A stretch of DNA of 64,000 nt from Shewanella metallivivens. GTDB taxonomy: Bacteria; Pseudomonadota; Gammaproteobacteria; Enterobacterales; Shewanellaceae. Below the pieces are notes generated by a model that saw only the letters and a program-made list of their open reading frames with translations, did no database searches and was not told the origin of the DNA. Numbering within the stretch: the stretch's first letter is position 1; each line of letters opens with the position of its first letter. Positions 23,662 to 31,869 of the stretch are shown here, piece after piece. Where the stretch lies: NCBI RefSeq assembly GCF_028750675.1, contig NZ_JAQQPZ010000002.1, positions 497,800-561,799 on the forward strand, written 5' to 3'. The position numbers were made by a program, and so were the translations under genes.

Positions 23662-24585
23662 TTAAAACTCAACAATCACCCTCACCCGATCTCGATAAAC
23701 ACCAGGGAGTGGAAACCTATCTTCCACCAATGTTTCAACCAAAAATTGAAACGCCTGGTTATTACCCACACCAATACCTGCCACACTGGCCGACAAATCT
23801 GGTCCTATTAGGGTGTTGCCGTCGGTCGTGGTAATTTTATAGGCGATGGTCTCGCTGTTAAATGCCATATTCCTTTGGCCGGCATTAAAGTTATCGCCAC
23901 CATCAACATAATATTGATAACTCAGCTGCTTAGTGCAATTGATATCCAATGGCAATATGGCGCTGTGAGCACTGCCCAGATAAGACACCGTACCAAGCGA
24001 GACATCTGATGTTTGAACGCTACAACTTTCGGTAACACTAAGTTGCACATTAATCATCACGGTTGCACTGCCATTGTCGCGACCTAAACAGATCCCTAAT
24101 AAGCCAATACCAGAACAATAATCCCATTGCCATAGTATCGATATGGTGTCGTTATACGTGCCTACACCGACATTCGCCGTACCTGTAGACAGATAAATAG
24201 GTATCGTGCCGTCATCGCCAAACAGGCCCAATAAATCCAGTAAATTAAATGATCCAAAACTCACCGTTTCATTAAGGGTGAAAGGATCTGAGCGCTCAGG
24301 CGCGGTATACAGTGTGTAAGGCACTGCATCACCATTGGCAGCTGTTAATTGAAAATCAGCCCCCACTAATGTGGCATCAATTTCGCTAAAGTCCAGCAGG
24401 TTAACAAAGCCTGAGCAACTAAAATCTGAACTGAATGAGGTTTCTATAATACCTGTAGAAATTGATGCAGAGCTAAACGCGCCTAAGTTTTGATTGCTGT
24501 TACCGCCCACTACACAGTCTGCGTAAGCTTGTTGGCAAGTGAACACCATGACTGCTGTACAACACAGTTTGCTAATTATGTTCAT
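23662..24585 (-). CDS. Two-domain spore coat U (SCPU) fimbrial subunit, probable tip adhesin
   Basis: A 307-residue exported protein with a signal peptide ending near YADCVVGG. It holds two SCPU-type beta domains: the first has GDAVPYTLYTAPERS and ends near residue 175 (WQWDYC), the second starts at VTESCSVQTSDVSLG and ends GVYRDRVRVIVEF. Each has the Cys pair expected of exported pilin-like folds. In this family the two-domain subunit encoded after the usher is usually the tip protein. Its ATG overlaps the usher stop (ATGA), and it is the last gene of the fimbrial operon. Confidence 0.85.
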   Translation of the reverse strand: MNIISKLCCTAVMVFTCQQAYADCVVGGNSNQNLGAFSSASISTGIIETSFSSDFSCSGFVNLLDFSEIDATLVGADFQLTAANGDAVPYTLYTAPERSDPFTLNETVSFGSFNLLDLLGLFGDDGTIPIYLSTGTANVGVGTYNDTISILWQWDYCSGIGLLGICLGRDNGSATVMINVQLSVTESCSVQTSDVSLGTVSYLGSAHSAILPLDINCTKQLSYQYYVDGGDNFNAGQRNMAFNSETIAYKITTTDGNTLIGPDLSASVAGIGVGNNQAFQFLVETLVEDRFPLPGVYRDRVRVIVEF

Positions 24586-27500
24586 ACTGTCTCTCCTTTA
24601 CTTTGCTGTGTAATGTTATTTGCGCGTTGTTTAAAGAATAAATCTGGTTGGGGTGGTGCTTGTTGTGTCGAGTCATGATGAGGAACAAGATCGATATTAG
24701 TGTAATCAAGCCACCTCGCTTTGTCCCAATTGGGGGCATTTGGCATGCCCGCCTTAGACGCTATGTCATTCGTTAATAAGTAAACGTCACTTACCTTGTT
24801 CTGTGTAAGTAACGCATTGTTTATTGGATTAAATTGACTATCCGCATTCGATGATAGGATTAACCTTGGGGTGTTTGCAGTGTAAGTTTGCTTAACCGCC
24901 TCTTTTGTCGTTGATGCTGTTTCATGTATTTGAGCAGATAATACTAACTGTGAAGCAACCTGTTGCACTGTAACTGTAATGAACTCCAGATCTATGCTGC
25001 CCTGATGTTGTTCAATCATAGAGGCTTGAGTGTTCACTGCAGCCTCTGGATTTACTAGGGTTTGGGTCTGTTCATCTGAGTGAGTTTTCTCAATCACATG
25101 AGTTGGCTCAACATCAATAGCAACCGTATTGATCACTTTAACCACTTCAGACTTTGGAGTATGTATGGCTTCTGGCGATGTTACATTAACCATGCTGTCA
25201 GATTGTTCGCATACCAAAGGCCCAATGATGGCTTTTTGATGATTGATTTGGGTATAACTAAACTCAACTGAGCATTGTTTATTGTCCCACTGCAATACCA
25301 TCTGATTTTGCGCTTGTAGCGCTTGCGGATAAACTTCTCCGTGATGCGCTACTGTCTGTGGTTGCTTATCACTGTTAATGATAGCGCTGGCACCTGCAGG
25401 AATAGGGTTACCTTTGCTGTCGTTTACAATCACAGTCGCAATAAATTGTTTAGGTTCACAGATAATTGGACCAATCACGGGTGTTTGCTCATCTGTTTTA
25501 CGGTAAGAAAATTCAGCGGAGCATTGTTGATCAGCCCAGTTAAGGGTTATGATGTTTTGCGTTCTAAGCGATGATAATGACAATTGACCATTTTTACCGA
25601 CAACTTTTGGTTCAAGCTGATCATTAATGATGGCTAAGGTACCTGCTGGTACAGGTTGGCCTTGTTGATCATTAATCATGACCAGTGCATTGGCATCCTC
25701 AGTAGCACATACCAATGGGCCAATGACAGGAATGTCATCTTCTTGCTTGCTGTAGGCAAACTCAAGTACGCACTGCTTACCGTCCCATACAAGCGTTAAG
25801 GTATTGTTATCCTGTAGCTTTTCAAGATACAACTCACCGTCCCAACCGACAAAGTCACCATTTTGTTCACCATTTAGGGTCGCTAATGCACCGACCGGAA
25901 TAGGCTGACCTTGCTCATCGTTTACAATCACAATGGCTGCTTTGGTTTGATACAGTTCAAAATCAACATCTACACCGTGGTTTTCTGCTGCCATCACTTG
26001 TATTTGATCGTTCACCACGTTGGTGTCTAGCGGTAATGATTTGGTGTTAATACTGATATTGACTGGGTTATATGATGCAAGCCCGGTAACCAATAACATG
26101 CCGTCATCATCTGACTCACCGACTTGCTGGTTTTCAATTAATACTGGCACATCTGCAATACCGCCCGTTGATACCACGGCAAACGTATCGGCGACCCGAT
26201 TACCTAACAAGAAACGACTATTAGACCAAATTAATGAGCCCGAGGCCTGGCCCCAATGGCCACTTGAACCACCACGGTTGTAGTAACCGCCAGTTAATTC
26301 AACTTTGTCACCTCTCCAACTGCCGTTAGCTGAAAAATCACTGGTGCCTACAACATTGCTGACGTTACCTCTAAAACCACGATTGCCATTGCGAGCAAAT
26401 GAAGCTGAGGCTACGGTACGGTCTTCGCCTTTATTGTCACGCACATGGCTTACGCTAGCACGGGAACGAGTGCCAAATGGCATCGAAAAATTCAAGCCAA
26501 CGCTCACATCGTCACGATCGGGATCCCAGTTAACACTGGCTGAAATAGAGGCTGTATCGATTGATTGATTATAAAAAGCAGATACCAGGCGACGGTCATC
26601 ATCATCGAACTTAGTGATATCAAAATACCCCATCCCCACTGAAACGCCATTATCAAATGAGTATGCGGCATTGGCTTGTACTTCACGCTCGATTTGCGAC
26701 ACAAATTGGGTTGACCCTGTGTCACGGTAACCTTGTTGCTGTTGCTTGAGTTGGGCAGAAACCCCCCAGTTATTAGCCTGAAAACGATAACCAGCAAGCC
26801 CTAACCAACCGCTGCTATTTTTGTCTTGGCCATGGGCAGCCGCAAACGAAAATACCCCTAGATTACCTAGTGTAAAATCAGTTCCAAAACCTAAGTTGTA
26901 AACATCTTTGCTCAGTTCGGCATGCGATGACACCGACATGCTGTCGGTTAAGCCATAACGAACATCGGCAATAGCGGTTAGGTTTGAGTCATAATCAAAT
27001 GAATCAAGACCAAAACCTTGTCTTAGTACCCCTAGGTTAAGGTCGTAGTCGTACACTCCCTGTTTAAGCAACTCTGGTGCAACATAAAATTGCAAATCAC
27101 GGCTAACTGCTTGACCATAAATATCGGTGGTAACAATACTGGCGCTGGCAAAGCCATTAACTGTAGGTTCACTGTCTAGAATAAAGTTACCAGGCTCAAC
27201 ATTCCCAGAGTACATTTTGTAATTATTTACAAAGACTTCAATATCTGATGGCAATACCGCACTACCAATGAATTCAGGATAAGGGTAACTGATAAACTGT
27301 GGGTCTAACTCAAAACGTCGGGACAGCTTAATCCCCCCCATTCTGACTTGACGAGCCCAAGGGTTACCGCCACTTATCATGTCGCCGACACGCCAATAGC
27401 GCATATTTTCCTCGTCATTGTATTGCCAAAAACTGTCGTAGCGGATCATTCCTTCGTCGACAAAGCTGTTATGACTGCCACCCAGTTGCTTACGATAATT

Positions 27501-27971
27501 ACCTGTGGTTTCAACGACTCCCCAATCGCCAAATGCGCGCCACTGTTGCAATAAATCGACTGTGGTTGTGCCAGATTGGTAATCACGATAATAGATATCG
27601 TAATTCATTAACGCACCACTAGAGCGCGTAATCGGGATAGAGGTTCTTTTTTTGCTGTTAATCACCTGAGCAGGAAACAAATCTATGTCAGCGGTAAGAT
27701 AAAGACGTTGTGTTTCGTAACTATATTCACAAGTGACGGCTTGTAAATTACAGTAATCAACACGACCATTTAAGCCACTGGCATACTCAGCTAATGATGA
27801 GGTGCCCAAAACGTCTTCGCTACTCCAAAAATGATTTTGAATACGGTTAAATTCTATTAGTTGGTTAACTTGGACGCCATTAAGATACACATCCAAATAT
27901 AAGGTTTCAGCTGAGGCTACACTGGTGTATGAGCATGCTGCGACTAAGATAACGTTGGTTAGTTTTTTCAT
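24582..27971 (-). CDS. Outer-membrane fimbrial usher with three tandem C-terminal domains
   Basis: The usher forms the outer-membrane pore that takes subunits from the chaperone and assembles the fibre. Residues 1-21 are a signal peptide; about 22-140 form the N-terminal chaperone-binding domain; about 150-650 are the beta barrel with plug. Ushers in the family normally end near residue 800. Here the C-terminal domain is present three times (about 677-755, 761-838, 844-921), each starting like IVNDEQGQPIPVGA and ending IGPLVC, then comes a Thr/Gln/Asn-rich tail of about 200 residues to residue 1129. The total is about 300 longer than usual. It starts 2 bp after the chaperone stop. Confidence 0.92.
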   Translation of the reverse strand: MKKLTNVILVAACSYTSVASAETLYLDVYLNGVQVNQLIEFNRIQNHFWSSEDVLGTSSLAEYASGLNGRVDYCNLQAVTCEYSYETQRLYLTADIDLFPAQVINSKKRTSIPITRSSGALMNYDIYYRDYQSGTTTVDLLQQWRAFGDWGVVETTGNYRKQLGGSHNSFVDEGMIRYDSFWQYNDEENMRYWRVGDMISGGNPWARQVRMGGIKLSRRFELDPQFISYPYPEFIGSAVLPSDIEVFVNNYKMYSGNVEPGNFILDSEPTVNGFASASIVTTDIYGQAVSRDLQFYVAPELLKQGVYDYDLNLGVLRQGFGLDSFDYDSNLTAIADVRYGLTDSMSVSSHAELSKDVYNLGFGTDFTLGNLGVFSFAAAHGQDKNSSGWLGLAGYRFQANNWGVSAQLKQQQQGYRDTGSTQFVSQIEREVQANAAYSFDNGVSVGMGYFDITKFDDDDRRLVSAFYNQSIDTASISASVNWDPDRDDVSVGLNFSMPFGTRSRASVSHVRDNKGEDRTVASASFARNGNRGFRGNVSNVVGTSDFSANGSWRGDKVELTGGYYNRGGSSGHWGQASGSLIWSNSRFLLGNRVADTFAVVSTGGIADVPVLIENQQVGESDDDGMLLVTGLASYNPVNISINTKSLPLDTNVVNDQIQVMAAENHGVDVDFELYQTKAAIVIVNDEQGQPIPVGALATLNGEQNGDFVGWDGELYLEKLQDNNTLTLVWDGKQCVLEFAYSKQEDDIPVIGPLVCATEDANALVMINDQQGQPVPAGTLAIINDQLEPKVVGKNGQLSLSSLRTQNIITLNWADQQCSAEFSYRKTDEQTPVIGPIICEPKQFIATVIVNDSKGNPIPAGASAIINSDKQPQTVAHHGEVYPQALQAQNQMVLQWDNKQCSVEFSYTQINHQKAIIGPLVCEQSDSMVNVTSPEAIHTPKSEVVKVINTVAIDVEPTHVIEKTHSDEQTQTLVNPEAAVNTQASMIEQHQGSIDLEFITVTVQQVASQLVLSAQIHETASTTKEAVKQTYTANTPRLILSSNADSQFNPINNALLTQNKVSDVYLLTNDIASKAGMPNAPNWDKARWLDYTNIDLVPHHDSTQQAPPQPDLFFKQRANNITQQSKGETV
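25209..25943 (-). repeat. Three tandem copies of the usher C-terminal domain
   Basis: Units of about 83 residues at 25707-25943, 25458-25691 and 25209-25442. All share N-D-x-x-G-x-P-(I/V)-P-(V/A)-G, a Trp or Leu then QC or VL before EFxY, and V/A-I-G-P-(L/I)-(V/I)-C at the end. The copies have diverged in sequence, so the triplication is not recent. Confidence 0.88.
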
Positions 27972-27973
27972 CG

Positions 27974-28711
27974 TTACCTCCCATCGTGGTTAATCTCCAC
28001 ATCGACACCATTGATTTCTGCGAATAGTTTCGACGAAGAGGTAATCGCAACGGGTGATACTTCAAACGCTGCCTGAGTGTTGGCTGGTACGTAACCCAGT
28101 AAGCCACCAAACACAACGCTCTGTGTGTTGCCGTCGTTGCTGTAACGTACTTTAGAGATTCTGGCGTGCCCGTTTGCTTGATTGTTGAAGACCAACTGAT
28201 TGGTTTTGTGATTGTATGAATAGCTTAATGCACGGTTCCAGATACTGGTTAATTGCTCAAAATTATCTGTGCGTGCCACTGACAAGTCTGGACCACCAAT
28301 AAACAAAGGTAAGGCATAACGCACTTGCAGCAATAAGCCTTGTTCTGATGTGTTTTGCATATCAGGAATTTCATCCAAAAATACTCGATATAAGCGTTCA
28401 TTATTGATGTCACTTGCAGGGCCAGTATTAACGATACGAACCACCTGCTGTTTACCCGGTAAAATGTTGAGGGATGATGGGCTGACCACCACTTTAGGCT
28501 TGTCTTGAGTGTTGTTGTGTGTATCCCAATGTCGCACACGAACTTGAATCTTCATGGTGGTGTTACTGTTATTTTGCAGTTTCAGTAAAGCGGCTTTTTC
28601 GCCTGGGGCAATATCAATATTTACCGGTGAAATCAATAATTCGGCAGCGGTAAGGCTAAAAGGGTTTATGACCATTAAGCTGGCTAATATAAGCAATACT
28701 AAATGCTTCAT
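27974..28711 (-). CDS. Periplasmic fimbrial chaperone
   Basis: A 245-residue PapD/FimC-like chaperone that stabilises subunits by donor-strand complementation and carries them to the usher. It has a signal peptide (residues 1-23), LLISPVNIDIAPGEKAALLKLQN at the first strand, and RLYRVFLDEIP with the conserved basic and acidic residues of the domain-1 subunit-binding cleft, then a second domain. Length is normal. It lies between the subunit genes and the usher, with 2 bp to the usher start. Confidence 0.9.
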   Translation of the reverse strand: MKHLVLLILASLMVINPFSLTAAELLISPVNIDIAPGEKAALLKLQNNSNTTMKIQVRVRHWDTHNNTQDKPKVVVSPSSLNILPGKQQVVRIVNTGPASDINNERLYRVFLDEIPDMQNTSEQGLLLQVRYALPLFIGGPDLSVARTDNFEQLTSIWNRALSYSYNHKTNQLVFNNQANGHARISKVRYSNDGNTQSVVFGGLLGYVPANTQAAFEVSPVAITSSSKLFAEINGVDVEINHDGR

Positions 28712-28722
28712 GTTGTTTCTCC

Positions 28723-29232
28723 TTAAAAAATAAGTACAACCTCTACGCTGTCTTGGTAGTTACCTGTAGAGGGAGTCACTGCTTGTGGCGCAATAGCTGC
28801 ATAGATTGGCAGCCATTCAAACAAACCACTGGCAGTCCCGCTTATCGCATTAGCGTTGTCCCATACTTGCGAACGTCCAGGGTCTTGAAATAGTTGATAA
28901 GGCACCATTTCACCGGTGACGTTATTGAGTAACTTACGGTTACTACTGTCGGTGCCGTTTAACCCATTACCAAGTTCAATTCGGTAACTTAAATTGGGGG
29001 AACATCTAAAGCCAATAGAACCACTTCCGGGTGTCGACGTGGCTTGTGCTCCATAAGTTAAACTGCTCAGTTCACCAAAATTAATCACACCAAATGCCGT
29101 GGCACCGCTGCCGTTGTCTAGCACACAACCTTGTTCTATTTGGATGCTGATTTCACTCACATCTTGCGCTTGTTCTGCAACAACAATTAGCGGGGTCATA
29201 GCAAGTAGTGCGATTAATGTCTTGGTCATCAT
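28723..29232 (-). CDS. SCPU-domain fimbrial subunit
   Basis: A single-domain spore coat U-type subunit of 169 residues from the ATG at 29232. AGGA lies about 8 nt upstream; the in-frame ATG at 29268 has no ribosome site and would put a polar extension before the signal peptide. The signal peptide is MMTKTLIALLAMTPLIVVAE. The mature part has EQGCVLDNG and FRCSPNLSYRIEL, an apparent Cys pair, and ends YQDSVEVVLIF. Such subunits polymerise through the chaperone-usher route. It is the second subunit gene of the operon. Confidence 0.88.
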   Translation of the reverse strand: MMTKTLIALLAMTPLIVVAEQAQDVSEISIQIEQGCVLDNGSGATAFGVINFGELSSLTYGAQATSTPGSGSIGFRCSPNLSYRIELGNGLNGTDSSNRKLLNNVTGEMVPYQLFQDPGRSQVWDNANAISGTASGLFEWLPIYAAIAPQAVTPSTGNYQDSVEVVLIF

Positions 29233-29300
29233 TGTTTCATCCTCGTTTGATGAAGAATGCGGCGTCATTTACTGAGATTAAATGACGCCCTGCAGGTTGA

Positions 29301-29837
29301 TTACCACGAGATGGTCATACGTACAGTATCTAAGTAGTTACCCGCTGCTGGGGTGGTTTGTCCTGCCAAAACACGACCATAAATCGTTAATGGTTGCGCA
29401 GCGCCAGTTCCGGTTAAAGCTTGTGACTGTGGACCTTCCCCCCAACGCACAGAGCGCGCTGCATCTTGATAAAGCTCATAGTTCACAAAATCTAAACCAC
29501 CGCGAGATACACGACGTTGGCCGGCCTGCGGGTTTGAACCATCATCAAGCGCTACGCTATAGGCTAAGCTGGTATTACAGGTGAGCTCGATACTACCTGT
29601 TCCTGCTGAGCCAGCAGACTCGGCATCAATAAACAGGTCTAAATTACTTTGTTCACCAAAGTCGACTGAGCCAAATTTATTAATACCGGCACCGGCATCT
29701 GCGGTACCGTTTACGGCACAGCCTTCACCTATAACCAGTGATACATCAACATCACCACGTATTTCACTTGCAAATGATGGGCTCATCGCTACTGAAGAAG
29801 ATAATAATGCTGCGATTGTGATATGTAGTTTTTTCAT
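29301..29837 (-). CDS. SCPU-domain fimbrial subunit, probable major subunit
   Basis: A 178-residue exported subunit: signal peptide to about residue 23 (SPSFASE), then GEGCAVNGTADAG and LTCNTSLAYSVAL with the paired cysteines, PLTIYGRVLAG, and the end YLDTVRMTISW. As first gene of the operon, right after a sigma-54-type promoter, it is the likely main fibre subunit. GAGGTG precedes the ATG. The next subunit gene lies about 70 bp downstream. Confidence 0.9.
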   Translation of the reverse strand: MKKLHITIAALLSSSVAMSPSFASEIRGDVDVSLVIGEGCAVNGTADAGAGINKFGSVDFGEQSNLDLFIDAESAGSAGTGSIELTCNTSLAYSVALDDGSNPQAGQRRVSRGGLDFVNYELYQDAARSVRWGEGPQSQALTGTGAAQPLTIYGRVLAGQTTPAAGNYLDTVRMTISW

Positions 29838-30438: not shown

Positions 30439-31869
30439 TTAATTTTCAACCCAGCTTTTCATTTTTCGGTATATCGTCGATGCACTTATACCGAGGTACG
30501 CAGCTGCAAGCGGTATATTGCCATCACACTGGTTTATGGCATCCTCAATGGCATTTTTTTCAACGACCCACAGTTGTATAATATTGTTGTTTGGCTCAGG
30601 TTGTACTTTAACATTTGTATTCACATCTTTAGCTGAATGGGGCTGTGAGATGTGATTGTGCAAAGGATGCTGCTGTTGATTGACAACACTATGACCAAAA
30701 TTATTGGGTAGCATGTCTTGTTGGACACTTTGACCATCATAAATCACTACGATATTTTCTATCACATTTTGTAATTCACGAATGTTACCGGGCCAATCAT
30801 ATTGTCTAAACGTTTGTTTTACATCTTCGCTAAAGCTCTGAAATTTTTTGTTATTTTCAGCTGATTTTGCCATTAAGATATGATTAGCTAATAATAAAAT
30901 ATCATCACCCCGTTCGCGCAATGGCGGTAACGTTACAGGGATCACATTGAGGCGATAATATAAATCTTCACGGAAACGCCCCTCGCCGACTTCAGCGGCA
31001 GGATTACGGTTGGTTGCACATACAATCCGCACATCACTTTGTAATACTTCATTGCTGCCGACTTTACAAAAGGTACCCGTTTGTAAAAAACGTAATAATT
31101 TGGCTTGAAGATTTAATTGCATCTCACAAATTTCATCTAAAAATAGTGTGCCACCGTTAGCCACCTCAACAGCCCCTTTTCTATCGGTAAGCGCACCACT
31201 AAAGGCACCTTTTACATGGCCAAAAAATTCAGATTCAAATAATTCTGCTGGTATTGCTGCACAGTTAATCGCAATAAAAGGCCCATTATTACGCGCGCTG
31301 GCTTGATGGAGCCCTAATGCACAGACTTCTTTACCCGTACCACTTTCACCTGTAACAAAGACACTGGCTTTACTGCGAGCTGCACTTTCTAATAAGCGAA
31401 ATACCGTGTGCATTGACAAGGATTCACCAATAAAATTTTGTCTATCAAGTGACGTCGATTCGGGTTCAACTTCAACGATTTCTAACTCTTGGTGTTGTTG
31501 TTTAATTGCGTTTGAAACCGAGGTGATTAAGCGCTCAGAAGTAAACGGTTTCTCGATAAAGTCATAACCACCTAATCGCATCGCATCAACGGCTATATCA
31601 ATAGAACTATTAGAAGTGATGATAATAACTTTGGCTGAAACTTCTTGTTTATTAACATATTTAAGGACTTCTAAACCACTAATATCAGGTAAACATACAT
31701 CTTGAACTAATACTGCAGGCATCTTCGCTTTAATGGCAACTAATGCAGAATACCCATCCACAAAATGTTCAGTCTCAAAACCGGCTTTTTGCAACTGGCT
31801 GCAATACAAAGCGCCACTCGACAAGCTGTCTTCTACGACGTACACCAGTGGCTTATTAGTGGTATCCAT
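30439..31869 (-). CDS. Sigma-54 response regulator (LuxO/NtrC type)
   Basis: A 476-residue enhancer-binding activator. Order: receiver (1-125) with acceptor Asp in VLVQDVCLPD and the KPF motif; AAA+ domain (about 145-375) with Walker A GESGTGKE, the sigma-54 contact loop GAFSGA (a Ser form of GAFTGA), Walker B GGTLFLDEI and RFREDLYYRLNV; and a C-terminal Fis-type helix-turn-helix (IPLAAAYLGISASTIYRKM). An Asn/Gln-rich linker precedes the helix-turn-helix. The Hpt gene 9 bp upstream suggests it is the phosphate acceptor of a LuxU-like relay. Its own operon and the fimbriae have matching sigma-54 promoters and palindromes, so it probably also activates its own gene. Confidence 0.93.
   Translation of the reverse strand: MDTTNKPLVYVVEDSLSSGALYCSQLQKAGFETEHFVDGYSALVAIKAKMPAVLVQDVCLPDISGLEVLKYVNKQEVSAKVIIITSNSSIDIAVDAMRLGGYDFIEKPFTSERLITSVSNAIKQQHQELEIVEVEPESTSLDRQNFIGESLSMHTVFRLLESAARSKASVFVTGESGTGKEVCALGLHQASARNNGPFIAINCAAIPAELFESEFFGHVKGAFSGALTDRKGAVEVANGGTLFLDEICEMQLNLQAKLLRFLQTGTFCKVGSNEVLQSDVRIVCATNRNPAAEVGEGRFREDLYYRLNVIPVTLPPLRERGDDILLLANHILMAKSAENNKKFQSFSEDVKQTFRQYDWPGNIRELQNVIENIVVIYDGQSVQQDMLPNNFGHSVVNQQQHPLHNHISQPHSAKDVNTNVKVQPEPNNNIIQLWVVEKNAIEDAINQCDGNIPLAAAYLGISASTIYRKMKSWVEN

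Follow-up and report, generated by a model that had tools for sequence, protein, structure and literature searches.

Three tandem C-terminal domains and a polar tail in a fimbrial usher of Shewanella metallivivens

We find that a fimbrial usher of Shewanella metallivivens, encoded in the 64,000-nucleotide stretch of DNA that was analysed (the window), carries three tandem copies of the second usher C-terminal domain, CTD2, followed by a polar tail. The three-copy layout and the tail are common to all five proteins of the orthologue group, and purifying selection acts on every copy. The pathway, the usher and the domain are already known; the new part is a tandem triplication of CTD2 fixed in five proteins. 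Classical ushers have two tandem C-terminal domains, CTD1 and CTD2, hence one CTD2 each (PMC8410936), and among the titles and abstract openings listed by searches of the open-access literature, none describes an usher with several CTD2 domains.

The usher is encoded on the minus strand by an ORF at 24582-27971, stop codon included, that reads through 1129 amino acids without an internal stop. Residues 208-663 match the usher barrel family PF00577 (E 1.8e-26; 93.6 bits, cut-off 27.1), in agreement with the original prediction of an usher at this place. Residues 1-21 resemble a signal peptide by eye. Residues 22-583 (the latter number being approximate; 26223-27908, minus strand, as are all parts of the protein given below) then make up the N-terminal domain, the barrel and the plug. 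CTD1 comes next (residues 584-676; 25944-26222); its approximate boundaries derive from a phmmer alignment to PapC and from the end of the PF00577 match. The PapC_N family PF13954 has no Pfam match here; the region itself is present and aligns with archaic ushers from about residue 16.

Three separate stretches within residues 677-923 match the PapC_C family PF13953 (E 2.1e-33). Scored singly against the cut-off of 27 bits, copy a (residues 677-758; 25698-25943) reaches 52.3 bits (E 5e-14), copy b (residues 759-839; 25455-25697) 38.0 bits (E 1.4e-9) and copy c (residues 840-923; 25203-25454) 38.8 bits (E 8.1e-10), all far above chance. Since each unit passes on its own, the claim that these are usher C-terminal domains in a tandem of three is upheld. 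The corresponding copies of the orthologue from Pseudoalteromonas sp. H71 score 48.2, 28.3 and 39.9 bits. Identity between copies is 42-46% in the window protein and 33-42% in H71, and the linkers that join them in the sequence are a few residues long. Behind copy c comes the predicted tail of about 200 residues (206 in fact, residues 924-1129; 24585-25202), rich in T, V, A, Q, S and N. The canonical layout, in which the protein ends soon after a single CTD2, is thus replaced by three copies and this tail.

A profile of the copies detects Caf1A (E 0.00024), FimD (E 0.0018) and PapC (E 0.049) among PDB chains; the A4 profile detects no PDB chain at E <= 1. A model of CTD1 and the three copies, made with five sequences, is of modest quality (mean pLDDT 58.5, pTM 0.32). 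Ushers or usher C-terminal domains make up 9 of the 11 PDB chains that Foldseek finds with it at E <= 0.001, the top rank being taken by a streptococcal pilin and not by an usher. In VIA-align, copy c superposes on the CTD2 of Caf1A with Z 11.0 (79 residues, 2.1 A) and on that of PapC with Z 9.8, and copies b and c together match CTD1-CTD2 of FimD with Z 10-11 at an rmsd of about 9 A. Such an rmsd supports the domains one by one and not their mutual placing; the arrangement of the copies relative to each other is not given by the model. Overall, the CTD2 of PapC, FimD and Caf1A matches the copies by profile and by fold (Z 7-11). The comparison with FimD and PapC that the original prediction had proposed thus gives usher matches for copy c and, domain by domain, for the b-c pair; for copy a it yields, among the matches listed, only non-usher folds (best Z 6.8). 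The identity of copy a thus rests on its sequence, where it scores highest of the three.

The chaperone-usher operon to which this gene belongs is intact and of the archaic (Csu-like) kind. ORFs and Pfam matches define five consecutive genes on the minus strand: an SCPU-domain pilin of 178 aa (29301-29837; PF05229, E 1.3e-31), a second of 181 aa (28723-29268; PF05229, E 2.1e-28), a PapD-type periplasmic pilus chaperone of 245 aa (27974-28711; PF00345 PapD_N, E 5.9e-16), the usher, and a protein of 307 aa with two SCPU domains (23662-24585; PF05229 twice, E 1.8e-19). This last gene, presumed to encode the tip adhesin, lies at the 3' end of the operon and its start overlaps the usher stop. With three SCPU proteins accompanying chaperone and usher, the operon falls among the archaic (sigma, Csu-type) systems. 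A search of the genome with PF00577 reveals no other usher. The GC content of the operon exceeds that of its flanks in 4/4 loci measured (0.441 versus 0.375-0.398 in the window).

CsuD, the usher of the Acinetobacter baumannii Csu pilus, aligns to residues 76-755 with 30.6% identity (tblastn, 303 bits, E 3e-82), and the window usher is nearer to it than to the classical ushers, among which the best PDB chain, PapC, gives 28 bits in phmmer. Like the window usher, CsuD has Usher and PapC_C matches and lacks one to PapC_N; unlike it, CsuD is 832 aa long and ends 4 residues behind a single CTD2 (744-828). The csu operon has a similar gene order, with csuD overlapping csuE, but places three pilin genes before the chaperone where the window has two. 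A likeness by operon description extends to CupE5, the usher of the archaic CupE system of Pseudomonas aeruginosa: there, as in the window, the usher and tip genes (cupE5 and cupE6) overlap, and their translation may be coupled (PMC10104325).

One contig scan found four orthologues at 63-99% overall identity, all of which have the complete operon and the three copies. They come from Shewanella ulleungensis (L030), S. saliphila (L031), Pseudoalteromonas sp. H71 (L032) and, at 99% identity, a MAG contig labelled Glaciecola (L029), a label that may be a binning error. The presence of the same layout in this second assembly argues against an assembly artefact; with the ORF intact and the three further orthologues in agreement, artefact and pseudogene are both rejected. 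The surroundings of the operon vary. In the MAG copy a transposase-like ORF (by eye; L029:1364-2632) separates the regulator gene from the first SCPU gene, and it is absent from the window. Upstream of the operon in S. ulleungensis and S. saliphila lies a gene for a protein of 435 residues whose hydrophobic start looks pilin-like by eye (L030:3935-5242, L031:3900-5207), while the nearest upstream gene in the window (30439-31869) is response-regulator-like, so that its neighbourhood is unlike theirs.

The three-CTD2 layout looks rare across the Shewanella genomes and the wider draws surveyed. The tandem profile A1 was run over whole genomes in genus, order, class and phylum draws that overlap. 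Full three-domain matches occur in 3 of 129 genus genomes, namely the window's own (G000) and two that are probably those of S. ulleungensis and S. saliphila, none of them new; in 2 of 197 genomes of the order draw, both among these three; and once each among 369 genomes of the class and 398 of the phylum draw, G000 both times. Among the matches listed for the phylum draw, 59 other places cover at most 105 of the 247 profile positions, and a match in the order draw (G088) that spans positions 17-246 does so over 195 bases, so it represents a single domain. PF13953 matches are found in 60 of 398 genomes, with more than one match per frame, among the matches listed, in G000 alone. A strongly diverged extra copy could be missed in this way; G345, with its possible second copy described below, is an example. 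Usher matches occur in 544 plasmid records, in no case covering 80% of the window usher at one place. Among the plasmid matches listed, 29 of 30 stop where copy a ends (residue 755 or 757); the match in H13 reaches 797, past its annotated 766-aa gene, in which there is one weak CTD2 match.

Does the triplication set this group apart from its nearest relatives? Of 31 listed ushers other than the window's own, 29 were read; the remaining two (G201:C1 and G129:C32) had no locus. The copy profile gives one C-terminal match in 25 of the 29 ORFs, eight of these weak (E 0.012 to 0.93), and no match in four, one of which (L099) is cut by a contig end. None of the 29 has two C-terminal copies by this profile; five further matches, all with E of at least 1.5, lie in other parts of the ORFs. 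The top-scoring relative (L082, 601 bits) stops directly behind its CTD2. The expectation that ushers normally have one CTD2 therefore stands, CsuD included, and the idea that three copies are standard for archaic ushers is rejected for those read beyond the orthologue group. The original prediction had named a standard copy number within the subfamily as the case against itself: this holds inside the orthologue group (5/5) and fails outside it, where one copy is the rule in the ushers searched. A possible degenerate second CTD2 was seen in an 853-aa usher of G345 (L124:1190-3751, the same ORF as in L103), which would then have at most two copies: behind the copy at 689-767, a second PapC_C match at 789-823 scores 17.3 bits, under the cut-off of 27.

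The C-terminal ends were surveyed in 53 non-own loci. Fragments or frames with stops (L036, L039, L046, L116) were left out, which gave 49 C-termini from 48 different ushers (L077 and L117 being the same), some of them shared with the 29 above. Forty-eight of the 49 end 0-39 residues past the matched domain, and L068 ends 122 residues past it. In one genome (G655), two ushers with a single PapC_C, L122:1805-4969 and L068, continue past it in low-complexity sequence for about 184 and 122 residues, so a tail as such is not unique to the window usher. Another single-CTD2 usher (L121:22-3180, G670) has a long N-terminal extension with an AMIN domain (PF11741, E 1.1e-8, residues 172-267). AMIN domains are found in peptidoglycan-binding envelope proteins; if this one marks a wall-anchored usher, it is worth a look.

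Each copy has its own history. A tree was built from 12 copies together with 13 outgroup domains picked from the better matches. In it a, b and c each form one orthologous group (support 70/78, 99/98 and 86/75), which places the triplication before the split between the Shewanella and Pseudoalteromonas genes, unless the operon was transferred later. The tree leaves most deeper forks unresolved, and two outgroup rows sit among the copies. Copy a is closest to the outgroup CTD2, with a mean identity of 0.29 versus 0.26 and 0.24 for the others.

Selection on the copies is seen in the dN/dS of the window usher against those of S. ulleungensis and S. saliphila, respectively: 0.033 and 0.049 for a, 0.100 and 0.113 for b, and 0.062 and 0.049 for c, with 0.035 and 0.043 for CTD1 and 0.034 and 0.033 for the barrel. 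Between the latter two species a gives 0.041, b 0.032 and c 0.176. Thus 8 of the 9 copy values in the Shewanella comparisons lie at 0.03-0.11, similar to CTD1 and barrel. In the comparison with H71, copy c alone escapes saturation at synonymous sites (dN/dS 0.162), and the constraint on c is accordingly looser in 2 of 4 comparisons (0.176 and 0.162). The original prediction had taken the divergence between copies as a sign that selection keeps them. Divergence of that kind does not show it, but the low dN/dS and the conservation of each copy from Shewanella to Pseudoalteromonas do support the same conclusion.

The tail follows a different course. Its dN/dS is 0.385 and 0.408 in the two window comparisons, about 4-12 times that of the copies, and 0.450 between S. 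ulleungensis and S. saliphila. Its length is 206 residues in the window protein, 207 in the MAG copy, 336 in S. ulleungensis, 354 in S. saliphila, where part of it is an array of an 18-base repeat, and 195 in H71. No Pfam family comes near its cut-off in the tail. The Shewanella tails align with each other at both ends. The window and H71 tails give no significant BLAST match; aligned over 135 residues, Shewanella and Pseudoalteromonas tails are 23% identical, the likeness lying mainly in the last residues (KGETV versus RGESV). From its composition, the tail is probably loose and disordered.

Are the three copies equivalent? In PapC, F732 and W767 of CTD2 contact the chaperone, and P744, F745 and W781 contact the N-terminal domain; the changes F732A, W767A and L765A/W767A disrupt assembly (PMC8410936). 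We mapped these positions through the phmmer alignment of copy a, which is weak (28 bits), and the alignment of the copies, so that single residues are approximate. Position 732 is Ile in 5/5 a copies, Leu or Ile in b and Thr in four of the five c copies. Position 744 is Pro and position 781 Trp in all copies. At 745 the copies have Val (a) or Ala (b and c), and an aromatic residue occurs there in 1 of 13 outgroup domains; 765 is Glu or Gln throughout, the PapC residue not being conserved. F745 and L765 of PapC thus have no counterpart in the copies. Position 767 is Tyr in every a and c and Tyr or Phe in 13/13 outgroup domains, but Ser or Thr in b in all five proteins (Ser in the window). By residue class, copy a appears to retain most of the chaperone contacts of PapC, and the altered residues in b (767) and c (732) would speak against three equivalent sites or plain copies of one site. 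The suggestion in the original prediction that triplication may change the order or number of subunits engaged is a conjecture that goes beyond these data.

With a probability of about 0.4, we favour a division of labour in which copy a does the handover and copies b and c with the tail make an added arm that offers a weak surface for docking or tethering. Copy a, adjoining CTD1, would take the chaperone-capped base of the fibre over from the N-terminal domain, as a normal CTD2 does. The extra arm would lie in the periplasm, a location that we infer, as we do the role, here from usher topology, and may hold the growing fibre by its base, or else chaperone-subunit complexes, close to the pore during the intervals between cycles in which CTD2 is detached. 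Tethering is preferred because CTD2 is released and then rebound in the PapC cycle (PMC8410936) and because slipping of the base has been proposed as a hazard in archaic pili (PMC9452303). The latter source also reports that the base and the C-terminal domains show no important interaction or affinity and that F1 chaperone-subunit complexes bind neither CTD2 nor CTD1-2, which weakens a docking or tethering role. A stronger version, in which a binds the chaperone and b and c, their contact surfaces altered, relay or tether either the fibre base or a further chaperone-subunit complex while a single CTD2 lets go, seems quite unlikely to us; if true, the usher would hold the base at more than one site.

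Other explanations draw on the same observations. The few-residue linkers would suit a string of beads in which b and c hold the tail off the pore while the tail or c contacts peptidoglycan or a periplasmic partner and braces the usher against the pull on the pilus. The AMIN-bearing usher of G670, with that domain on its N-terminal side, indicates that ushers are able to gain anchor-like parts, but arm and tail have no known peptidoglycan-binding domain in Pfam and the Shewanella and Pseudoalteromonas tails have little sequence in common, and we regard such bracing, the main rival reading, as somewhat unlikely. It is unlikely, too, that two chance duplications left one working copy and two that stay, with no new function, since their removal is rare or mildly harmful. 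The changed contact residues in b and c, the evolution of b about 2-3 times faster than a against the window, the single value of 0.176 for c and the growth of the S. saliphila tail by the 18-base repeat would all fit mere tolerance. That account is opposed by dN/dS values for b and c that never exceed 0.18 and by the persistence of all three copies from Shewanella to Pseudoalteromonas, since copies that could be lost or broken at no cost would not be expected to last. We consider it very improbable that b or c plug the periplasmic mouth of the pore as a further gate: the title of 2kt6, a structure of a PapC C-terminal domain, calls that domain structurally homologous to the plug, and our model matches it (Z 7.0), but no sequence feature suggests binding to the pore.

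What drives secretion in archaic pili, and what the C-terminal domains contribute to it, is discussed as unsettled (PMC9452303). A natural usher with three diverged CTD2 domains, one of them without the contact aromatic, can address this question: removing the copies one by one can test the parts of CTD2 in holding, handover and anchoring.
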